Source: Prochlorococcus sp. AG-335-I21 (GTDB lineage: Bacteria > Cyanobacteriota > Cyanobacteriia > PCC-6307 > Cyanobiaceae). Taken from it: DNA of 39,347 nucleotides. The stretch is from assembly GCA_003282225.1 (NCBI GenBank), contig QBZO01000008.1, positions 1 through 39,347 on the forward strand, in the 5' to 3' direction. Positions 25,888-31,522 of the stretch are shown here, piece by piece. Each line of letters starts with the position of its first letter. Position 1 is the stretch's first letter. The position numbers and the translations under genes were made by a program. The notes beneath the pieces are model-generated. The model was not told the origin of the DNA. It saw nothing but the letters and a program-made list of their open reading frames with translations, and ran no database searches.

Positions 25888-25916
25888 TTGTCATAAGGTA
25901 CATGTAAGAGTTAGAT
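25888..25916 (+). promoter_or_regulatory. Predicted sigma-70-type promoter of tRNA-Asn
   Basis: TTGTCA at 25888-25893 and TTAGAT at 25911-25916 are spaced by 17 bases, and the -10 ends 10 bases before the tRNA 5' end. This is a good bacterial promoter geometry for a stable RNA in an otherwise very AT-rich stretch. It was not tested, and chance matches are common at this base composition. Confidence 0.5.
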
Positions 25917-25926
25917 TTTTATATAT

Positions 25927-25998
25927 TCCTCGGTAGCTCAGCGGTAGAGCGATCGACTGTTAATCGATTGGTCGCAGGTTCGAATCCCGCCCGGGGAG
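25927..25998 (+). tRNA. tRNA-Asn (anticodon GUU)
   Basis: This 72-base cloverleaf has acceptor TCCTCGG/CCGGGGA with discriminator G, D-stem GCTC/GAGC, anticodon stem ATCGA/TCGAT around loop CTGTTAA (anticodon GTT), and T-arm GCAGG-TTCGAAT-CCCGC. CCA is not encoded. The middle T-stem pair (A25976 with C25988) is a mismatch. All other pairs are Watson-Crick or G-U. The gene is the anchor of the inserted island: the 3' end is repeated at 31399-31413. Confidence 0.95.
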
Positions 25999-26002
25999 TT
26001 CA
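25988..26002 (+). repeat. Candidate attachment site, tRNA side
   Basis: These 15 bases, CGCCCGGGGAGTTCA, cover the last part of the tRNA T-stem, the 3' acceptor strand and four bases beyond. The far-end partner at 31399-31413 matches 14 of 15. tRNA 3' ends are classic integration targets for tyrosine recombinases. The two copies are in direct orientation about 5.4 kb apart, as expected of attL/attR. Confidence 0.7.
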
Positions 26003-26025
26003 ATTTATGTCTCAAAAGACTTCTT

Positions 26026-26049
26026 AAGACTCCATCATGGGTCTTTTTT
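26026..26049 (+). terminator. Rho-independent terminator after tRNA-Asn (island copy)
   Basis: AAGAC at 26026-26030 pairs with GTCTT, with an inner CCA/TGG extension and a bulged T, followed by a run of six T. It lies about 28 bases after the tRNA and would end its transcript. It lies inside the candidate att boundaries, so the island brought it. Confidence 0.6.
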
Positions 26050-26088
26050 ATTGTCAATTTTTTATTTGAATTTAATTGTTGGATGAAG

Positions 26089-26122
26089 ATGTTGGGAAGG
26101 TTGGTGGGAAGATGGTGGGAAA
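26089..26122 (+). repeat. Tandem TGGTGGGAA motifs, tRNA-proximal end
   Basis: Three consecutive 11-12-base units are visible: ATGTTGGGAAGG, TTGGTGGGAAG and ATGGTGGGAAA, all in the same direction. Near-identical pairs occur at the other end of the island (31307-31328). G-rich words like this stand out in the AT-rich background. I infer arm-type binding sites for the recombinase or excisionase that moves the element. Confidence 0.7.
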
Positions 26123-26158
26123 ATATTGGAATTTGGCGATGTAAGGGGAAAAAAATTT

Positions 26159-30997: not shown

Positions 30998-31113
30998 TTA
31001 TTCAAGATTTATCATATAGAATAAAAACTTTCATGATTAAGGTTAAATTAGCATCAAAAATGGAAATGCAAAACAAATCCTTGAGAAAGAATATTAAATA
31101 AACTTTCCCCGCT

Positions 31114-31308
31114 TCATGATTCCTTAGATTTGTTATTGATCCATTCATGAATTTCTGTTTTCATAAAAACGATTCTTCTAGGAGATAATTTTATTTTTGG
31201 AGGAAAGTCTCCTTTTTTGGTTAAACGATTAATTGTTGAAACTGATCTTCCAAGTAAGTTTGATGCATCTTTAATGGTTAAAAAAGGACGATTTTCTTGA
31301 TTGATCAT
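31114..31308 (-). CDS. AlpA-family DNA-binding regulator / excisionase-like protein
   Basis: This 64-residue protein has a MerR-type winged helix: FLTIKDASNLLGRSVSTINRLTKKGDFPPKIKL, then RRIVFMKTEIHEWINNK, the RxxxxxxEIxxWI ending typical of AlpA/HTH_17 proteins. AlpA (P4 Vis, Xis-like) proteins regulate integrase genes or act as recombination directionality factors in P4-like elements. Its start codon touches the TGGTGGGAA tandem, which occupies its ribosome-binding region, suggesting autoregulation. It lies 116 bases upstream of the R-M gene. Confidence 0.85.
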   Translation of the reverse strand: MINQENRPFLTIKDASNLLGRSVSTINRLTKKGDFPPKIKLSPRRIVFMKTEIHEWINNKSKES

Positions 31309-31328
31309 GGTGGGAATATGGTGGGAAG
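31307..31328 (+). repeat. Tandem TGGTGGGAA motifs, distal end
   Basis: Two exact-period 11-base units, ATGGTGGGAAT and ATGGTGGGAAG, in direct orientation begin in the alpA-like start codon. They match the units at 26101-26122 in all but one or two positions per copy. Location at the opposite end of the island supports a role in recombination or control rather than chance. Confidence 0.7.
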
Positions 31329-31398
31329 ATTTCTAAAATTCAGGATTTTCTTATATCTACTTCAGTCAGGCACTTTCAGGAATTATCAACCCGACTTT

Positions 31399-31413
31399 CG
31401 CCAGGGGAGTTCA
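31399..31413 (+). repeat. Candidate attachment site, distal side
   Basis: CGCCAGGGGAGTTCA matches the tRNA-Asn 3' end copy at 25988-26002 with one mismatch. No tRNA structure surrounds it: the upstream part lacks T-stem and T-loop. It is the expected displaced half-site after integration. Beyond it the sequence goes on to a terminator resembling the one after the tRNA. Confidence 0.7.
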
Positions 31414-31435
31414 TTAACTTCCTAAACAGACTTAT

Positions 31436-31458
31436 AGAGACCTGAGGGTCTCTTTTTT
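31436..31458 (+). terminator. Orphan plus-strand terminator (probable native tRNA-Asn terminator)
   Basis: AGAGACC and GGTCTCT form a perfect 7-base stem around TGAG, followed by TTTTT, a strong Rho-independent terminator reading on the plus strand. The nearest plus-strand gene upstream is tRNA-Asn, 5.4 kb away across the island. The local minus-strand gene (31523-31882) would not use it in this direction. Confidence 0.8.
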
Positions 31459-31522
31459 ATTGAAAACACAATTAACTAAAGGGGAAAACTTTAAAAGCGC
31501 CTCATAAACTACTTCTAAAGAG

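Follow-up and report, generated by a model that had tools for sequence, protein, structure and literature searches.

In Prochlorococcus sp. AG-335-I21, the island behind the tRNA-Asn gene of the window (the whole 39,347-nt stretch of DNA that was analyzed) probably represents an integrated copy of a satellite-like, non-autonomous cassette, which has retained an AlpA excision factor and depends on an integrase borrowed in trans. The element, i.e., the part of the window between two tRNA-Asn cores, belongs to a family of cassettes with varied cargo at the same site. A borrowed integrase is the probable means of movement because the ends of the family match those of larger, integrase-bearing elements (helpers). 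The mobile unit extends from 25988/26000 to 31399/31411 (5411 bp), and the features at this site are the following:

25926–25999, + strand: tRNA-Asn(gtt), the integration target, intact after insertion (ARAGORN and alignment with the empty site L006)
25988–26000, + strand: left att core CGCCCGGGGAGTT, the tRNA 3′ end
26026–26050, + strand: terminator-like hairpin with a T-run on the element's left end behind tRNA-Asn (read by eye)
26090–26121, + strand: left arm-type repeats, TGTTGGGAA at 26090–26098 and TGGTGGGAA at 26102–26110 and 26113–26121
26159–30997, − strand: cargo, predicted type ISP single-polypeptide restriction-modification (R-M) enzyme, 1612 aa (Pfam, PADLOC, PDB)
31114–31308, − strand: AlpA-type small helix-turn-helix (HTH) protein, 64 aa, probable excision factor (Pfam)
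31308–31316 and 31319–31327, + strand: right arm-type repeats, TGGTGGGAA twice at an 11-bp pitch, abutting the AlpA start codon
31365–31388, + strand: NTCA repeats at an exact 10-bp pitch (31365, 31375, 31385), kept in the family consensus
31399–31411, + strand: right att core CGCCAGGGGAGTT with CCCGACTTT just before it, a displaced copy of the tRNA 3′ end
31523–31882, − strand: flanking gene DUF7326 (Pfam), outside the element, right border of the hotspot

The element bears the marks of a tRNA-targeted integrative element, namely a duplicated tRNA 3′ end at its far end (12 of the 13 bases of the right core are identical to it) and an empty site in relatives. On the + strand of the window, TGGTGGGAA occurs in four copies only, two per element end, and the arm pair pattern has two matches in the window versus none in 100 dinucleotide shuffles. 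Every other open reading frame (ORF) of at least 50 aa from one core to the other overlaps the R-M gene, either within it or in antisense, and neither the ORF list nor profile searches revealed an integrase or recombinase ORF in the element. The original prediction, made from the letters alone, had described a tRNA gene with att-like repeated ends, tandem motifs at both ends, and an AlpA-like protein with a single giant R-M gene and nothing else, all of which is borne out. The extent given there (25888–31522) does contain the element, but 25888–25925 and 31412–31522 are flank. The small protein scores 41.5 bits against Phage_AlpA (cut-off 21) and 43.9 bits against HTH_17 (cut-off 27) in Pfam, which places it among AlpA/excisionase-type proteins; its match to the NCBIfam excise domain is below the cut-off of that model. 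The NTCA repeats are possible AlpA sites. Hairpins similar to the one behind tRNA-Asn were also seen behind the tRNA in other loci (by eye, uncounted).

For comparison, 80 loci were gathered by means of the neighboring ABC protein gene, 77 of which have tRNA-Asn. In one of these, L006 (uncultured Prochlorococcus AG-337-J18), the interval between tRNA-Asn and the right border is 117 bp, i.e., the site is empty. When the window flanks are joined at the core and compared with L006, 1701 of 1701 bases align, 1588 of 1697 (93.6%) are identical, and 13 are gap bases. The locus closest to the window by the ABC gene (L069, 96%) has a different interval content. Because the L006 site is empty and the content of L069 differs, a vertically inherited island is excluded; the empty site anticipated by the original prediction thus exists, and the vertical inheritance that it had named as the alternative does not hold. 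The tRNA-Asn interval is a hotspot across Prochlorococcus, and its flanking genes are conserved across the genus. Its length was counted in 64 of the 80 loci (left out are 3 without tRNA-Asn and 13 without a right border, DUF7326 or rpaA) and is <400 bp in 28, 400–1000 bp in 10, and at least 1000 bp in 26. Cargo-free stubs of ~170–190 bp stand at tRNA-Asn in L103 (9835–10024) and L080 (10788–10971); these harbor arm sequence and a second core, with neither an AlpA match nor cargo.

AlpA relatives are present in 50 of 266 Prochlorococcus genomes, including helper and distant AlpAs. Cassettes were defined by an AlpA match with a core within +50 to +240 bp, with duplicates of one end dropped, which yields 42 distinct elements at 38 loci in 37 genomes (hand count; L096 and L198 are both from G160). 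In each, the AlpA gene lies beside a tRNA-Asn core, while the cargo varies. Among the 40 AlpA stretches, L182, L195, L197, L202, L204, and L205 yielded no cassette, the last three holding helper AlpAs; L171 is identical to L078 and L177 to L007, and several weak AlpA places in the genome scan lie outside the element set. The AlpA start is 89/90 bp away from the core in 26 cassettes, 100/101 bp in 10, 78/80 bp in 2, and 150–165 bp in 4, and at random positions a core (≤3 mismatches) falls in range in 195 of 8400 trials. Five cassettes have no left border and are left out of the size and left-arm counts; the other 37 have a median length of 2427 bp (range 809–9760); 25 of them begin directly at the tRNA, and 12 stand in tandem, beginning at a different att core.

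The right end is kept in further elements with different cargo, a recurrence of the end motifs that the original prediction had proposed to look for. Among the proteins scanned, the cargo comprises type ISP enzymes, AspBHI-like modification-dependent restriction, MrcB-N/NOV, PDDEXK, Z1, helicases, cadherin, beta-propeller, and DUF805 membrane proteins, and some ORFs match no family. Of the 73 cargo ORFs, 66 entered the Pfam and PHROG tallies, which list the 25 commonest families (the 7 omitted ORFs, three in L188 and four in L206, are 71–124 aa), and no primase or packaging gene is found among those 25 families. No complete integrase was found in the cassettes. The helper-integrase profile matches inside one of the 42, a 61-codon remnant beside AlpA in L206; the core/tRNA-Ser-type integrase profile matches none of the 42 (all loci searched), and a serine recombinase is present in one, an element without a known left border.

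The AlpA gene is intact in 33 of the 42 cassettes by our own criterion. The median ratio of nonsynonymous to synonymous substitution rates (dN/dS) is 0.33 over 438 of 528 pairs, the others being outside the usable range, and is at least 1 in 5 pairs; the cassette AlpA thus appears to be under purifying selection, which fits a working role. All cassette AlpAs but one (44%) are 50–78% identical to that of the window, whereas the AlpAs beside helpers with the same end type are 46–48% identical to it. Because the cassette AlpAs are the nearer to the window AlpA, they are not simply leftovers of the sampled helpers.

The helpers were recognized by a tyrosine integrase first met in the island L040, relatives of which are encoded in 22 of the 266 genomes. 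Seven integrase-bearing elements have the tRNA-Asn core (L040, L174, L202, L204, L205, L311, and L313; L012 is a duplicate of L205), while 16 other stretches around such integrases contain tRNA-Ser in 12 cases and no tRNA in 4, with an Asn core in none. In every helper except L040, the integrase gene is immediately preceded by an AlpA-like gene (six of seven; the Pfam match was checked for one). All seven also have a small serine recombinase in their stretch or contig; in the five for which both borders are known (L040, L174 with L327, L202, L205, and L313), it lies between them.

The likeness of the ends was established with a DNA profile of the right end, built from 24 cassettes that include neither the window nor any helper locus and ending 3 bases before the core. 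In a search of 593 kb from 31 loci, it matches L174 (2.3e-22), L204 (6.4e-22), L311 (2.1e-21), L205 (2.9e-19), and L202 (2.8e-12), and finds the window at 5.7e-20; the best match in other integrase loci has an E-value of 0.009 (L315). The presence of tyrosine integrases at this very tRNA-Asn site, with five of their seven elements in the same right-end family, supports the original prediction of a non-autonomous element whose recombinase would be encoded elsewhere.

The ends of cassettes and helpers also carry the arm repeats, and these vary. Helper arms are TGTTGGGAA in L204 and L174, TGGTGGGGA in L205, and TGGTCGGGA in L311 and L202, while the arms of L313 and L040 are of two kinds unrelated to those of the other helpers. 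Exact matches to the arms of a sampled helper are found in 11 of the 42 cassettes. Within single elements, the left and right arms have a mean best match of 7.35/9, compared to 6.68 when permuted (sd 0.13, p = 1e-4, n = 37). Part of the family accounts for this agreement: two or more left copies match the right arms at ≥8/9 in 13 of 37 cassettes and one copy in 4. Thus, the end-repeat conservation expected by the original prediction holds for the right end and is weaker for the left. Arms differ within one genome (L100, L167), and the same arm type is found with many cargoes. A scan of the 266 genomes for the arm pair with ≤1 mismatch gave 12 sites in 11 genomes, 8 of them in stretches with tRNA-Asn and 4 (G049, G034, G184, and G126) in stretches without a tRNA; the motif alone is therefore not exclusive to the tRNA-Asn site.

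The arms were considered as AlpA operators, a reading that is not preferred. Across 12 AlpAs from elements with various kinds of arms, the recognition helix, placed where HTH proteins generally have it, hardly varies; a reader other than AlpA is therefore probable for the arms. Moreover, the near-identical AlpAs of L167 and L169 bear different arms, while the diverged AlpAs of L175 and L187 bear the same arms.

The integrase itself offers a candidate reader. The helpers with identical arms (L204 and L174) share 91% identity over the N-terminal 100 columns versus 67% in the middle, and L311 and L202, which share the first nine arm bases, have 73% versus 55%. Among the ten pairs of the five close helpers, no others reach such high N-to-middle ratios (computed by hand, with domain borders of our own choosing). 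PF13356 has no match in the Prochlorococcus helpers scanned; L278, from another genus, matches it and aligns to L202. Through L278, the helper N domain is homologous to an arm-binding domain, and an arm-binding role is predicted; the name “P4-type” for the helper integrases rests on the same alignment. In other searches, no PDB sequence relative of the helper integrase was found at E 0.01, and its predicted structure had a predicted local distance difference test (pLDDT) score of 40.5 and was not used. PF00589 has no match in L204, L174, and L202; because it misses these main helpers, PF00589 searches are not evidence of helper absence. In other genera of the family, the AlpA gene and a related integrase adjoin close to tRNA-Ser (L278, L280, and L283; Pfam for the L278 integrase only).

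The cargo of the window is a type ISP R-M enzyme with predicted activity, as judged from its domains. Pfam identifies Mrr_cat_2, ResIII, Helicase_C, ISP_coupler, and Type_ISP_C, and the protein has the makeup that defines type ISP enzymes, i.e., an Mrr-type nuclease, an SF2 helicase, a coupler, an N6-adenine methylase, and a C-terminal specificity domain in a single chain. The gene scores 1934 bits in PADLOC, the PDB entry of LlaBIII (4xqk) is matched at E = 0, LlaGI is also matched, and an NPPY motif is present in the translation (by reading). Relatives at E 1e-100 or better occur in 8 of the 266 Prochlorococcus genomes, and full-length ones only in G000, G111, and G034, the last in two parts, each at the end of a different contig, which would fit a single split gene. 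In all three genomes, the gene lies between or beside tRNA-Asn cores. Because the end types there differ, an exchange of cargo and ends appears to have taken place. A recent exchange of ends is likewise suggested by L020 and L202: by eye, the two islands are almost the same over the initial ~190 bp past the tRNA, and L202 bears a helper while L020 yielded no helper-type integrase.

It is hypothesized that a helper integrase, arriving on another element, would bind the arms of the cassette with its N-terminal arm domain and the tRNA-Asn core with its catalytic domain. An integrase that binds both could insert the cassette in trans, and insertion or excision would proceed in this manner. The cassette AlpA would confer directionality as an excision factor, perhaps on the NTCA repeats, which are spaced at 10 bp and lie between arms and core. 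In this model, the 9-bp arms would serve as an address that tells which helper integrase can move the cassette, and the type ISP cargo may repay the host by defense against phages. A streamlined, globally abundant phototroph could thereby trade defense genes on cassettes that lack an insertion enzyme and are as small as 0.8 kb. The model also makes a prediction that is unusual for genomic islands, namely that the arm sequence of a cassette should foretell which integrase can move it.

A more far-reaching model is put forward tentatively and may well prove wrong. It proposes a two-part system at one tRNA-Asn gene, in which few integrase-bearing helpers and many integrase-less cassettes are linked through a hypervariable 9-bp address in the arms, which the N-terminal domain of the helper integrase reads; the cassettes would keep the excision factor and one or few defense or surface genes, and cargo would move between address types. 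If true, the system would constitute a distributed, integron-like defense library with interchangeable keys.

Several observations weigh against a borrowed integrase. No excised circle, attP junction, or transfer has been seen. The exact arms of the window match no sampled helper and are one mismatch away from the nearest, and none of the ten stretches around the non-window sites with paired TGGTGGGAA arms contains a helper-type integrase. The right-end profile misses L313 and L040, i.e., two of the seven helpers, which have other end types. Only one of the 37 cassette genomes (G034; hand count) holds a helper with the same ends at the site; G184 and G049 contain a helper together with cassette-like traces that were dropped by the cassette criteria. 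No helper-type integrase was found in the genome of the window, which is 58.7% complete. A clear right arm pair is absent in 10 of the 42 cassettes, and a matching left arm (8/9) is absent in 20 of the 37, including 11 of the 25 that start at the tRNA. The right (attR) core of the window has one mismatch, the same variant being found in L186 and the helper L311. Lastly, the AlpA gene is not intact in 9 of the 42 cassettes; because of these genes and the 20 cassettes without left arms, part of the family is probably dead.

The last observations raise the alternative that the cassettes are decayed remnants, similar to cis-mobilizable elements (CIMEs): formerly autonomous elements that lost their integrase, became stuck, and persist as independent dead ends kept for their cargo. 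The damaged AlpA genes, the missing left arms, and the mismatch in the attR core would all be expected, as would the integrase remnant beside AlpA in L206 and the cargo-free stubs of L103 and L080. However, AlpA is mostly retained, is under purifying selection, and lies at a fixed distance from the att core, and the cassette AlpAs are nearer to that of the window than are the AlpAs of same-end helpers. Left and right arms match where both are present, and one arm type occurs with many cargoes. General decay is thus unlikely, and a cassette with a borrowed integrase is the preferred explanation.

A second alternative assigns the movement to a tyrosine recombinase of ~390 aa encoded by the host, which would act on the cassettes in the style of an integron integrase. 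This protein is present in 87 of 87 near-complete Prochlorococcus genomes, mostly in a single copy and in a conserved place in the ten genomes compared (an example is G000:C15:4567-5754, L106), and the cassettes do outnumber the sampled helpers. In contrast, it is found family-wide, in 173 of 176 near-complete genomes, and is therefore probably a housekeeping enzyme; its profile matches none of the 42 elements, and a single conserved protein is at odds with arms that differ within one genome. As a mover of the cassettes it is highly improbable and was set aside. Spread by homologous recombination in the flanks, with the att sites as relics, can scarcely be credited, since, although the genus-wide conservation of the flanking genes would allow exchange of any content, the cores of the tandem arrays inside the island are in direct orientation and the junctions fall at the core, both of which indicate a site-specific process, at least at the origin.

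A phage was also considered as a source of the helper function and was set aside after searches of viral contigs and phage records. We know of no helper phage for the cassettes. The exact arm pattern has four matches in viral_contigs, none of which is beside a tRNA-Asn core; three are in stretches of 62–63% guanine–cytosine (GC) content without a tRNA, and the fourth, L224, is in a stretch of 55% GC. The pattern CGACTTTCGCCCGGGGAGTT has no match in viral_contigs, and the AlpA and helper-integrase profiles gave no confirmed relative of either protein there. Against phage records, the helper integrase has 133 matches, all of <60% identity, with 25% among the 15 matches listed. In L224 (1029–2371), an ORF that reads by eye as a tyrosine integrase lies beside tRNA-Lys, with repeats of the TGGTGGGAA type at its end and past it; an unrelated element may here bear the same arm motif.

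Among known systems, the tycheposons of Prochlorococcus are said to target tRNA genes and to carry cargo, with a tyrosine recombinase of their own as a hallmark, which the cassette of the window does not have. Integron cassettes employ attC hairpin sites and a fixed IntI, whereas the sites here are direct repeats of the tRNA core. P4-like satellites, phage-inducible chromosomal islands (PICIs), and phage-inducible chromosomal minimalist islands (PICMIs) resemble the cassettes in that they are small, att-flanked, and equipped with an AlpA gene and defense cargo. The element of the window shares the AlpA gene but lacks the integrase that these satellites encode themselves. According to the relevant passages on the PICMIs of Vibrio, AlpA is needed for excision and resembles excisionases, expression of AlpA activates PICMI115 without a phage, and excision of known satellites requires satellite-encoded integrases (PMC10803314). 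Likewise, the excision of EcCIMP1 is described in the relevant part of PMC11773190 as needing both AlpA and the integrase.

The CIMEs are att-flanked, devoid of integration genes, and found in tandem with integrase-bearing elements, features that the cassettes share. In the part of PMC5704250 concerned, the CIMEs are described as decay products of integrative and conjugative elements (ICEs) and integrative and mobilizable elements (IMEs), whereas the cassettes keep a selected AlpA and form a cargo-diverse family. The ssrA islands of Dehalococcoides, 31 in number and 16 with an integration module, are similar in being tandem islands at one RNA gene that are bounded by repeats of its 3′ end, but they employ serine integrases and an ssrA target, and AlpA is not named in the part of PMC3146451 covered. 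Cassettes behind tRNA genes with tRNA-end repeats have also been described in the streamlined aquatic bacteria Methylopumilus (PMC10872708) and Actinomarinales (PMC7771536), with no helper integrase, arms, or directionality factor described in the passages concerned. Thus, the AlpA satellites, CIMEs, Dehalococcoides islands, and Methylopumilus and Actinomarinales cassettes are each close in part. The tRNA-Asn cassette family was not found in the literature searched on Prochlorococcus islands, tycheposons, satellites, AlpA, CIMEs, and additive islands; Hackl et al. 2023, on tycheposons, may describe helpers or the site. A preprint reports a different Prochlorococcus integrase, one that is located at tRNA-Phe and tRNA-Cys and frequently has a small serine recombinase nearby (PMC10187409).

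Two further kinds of elements were observed. L100, L186, L189, L190, L191, and L192 are cassettes of ~1 kb with a single ORF of 184–241 aa and mostly missing left arms; among the 66 cargo ORFs scanned, 7 match DUF805 and are probably those of these small cassettes. L042/L105, which is 5 kb long, has TGGTGGGAA arms on the left, with no arms seen on the right, and contains genes of 401, 618, and 130 aa in addition to a small AlpA-like ORF.

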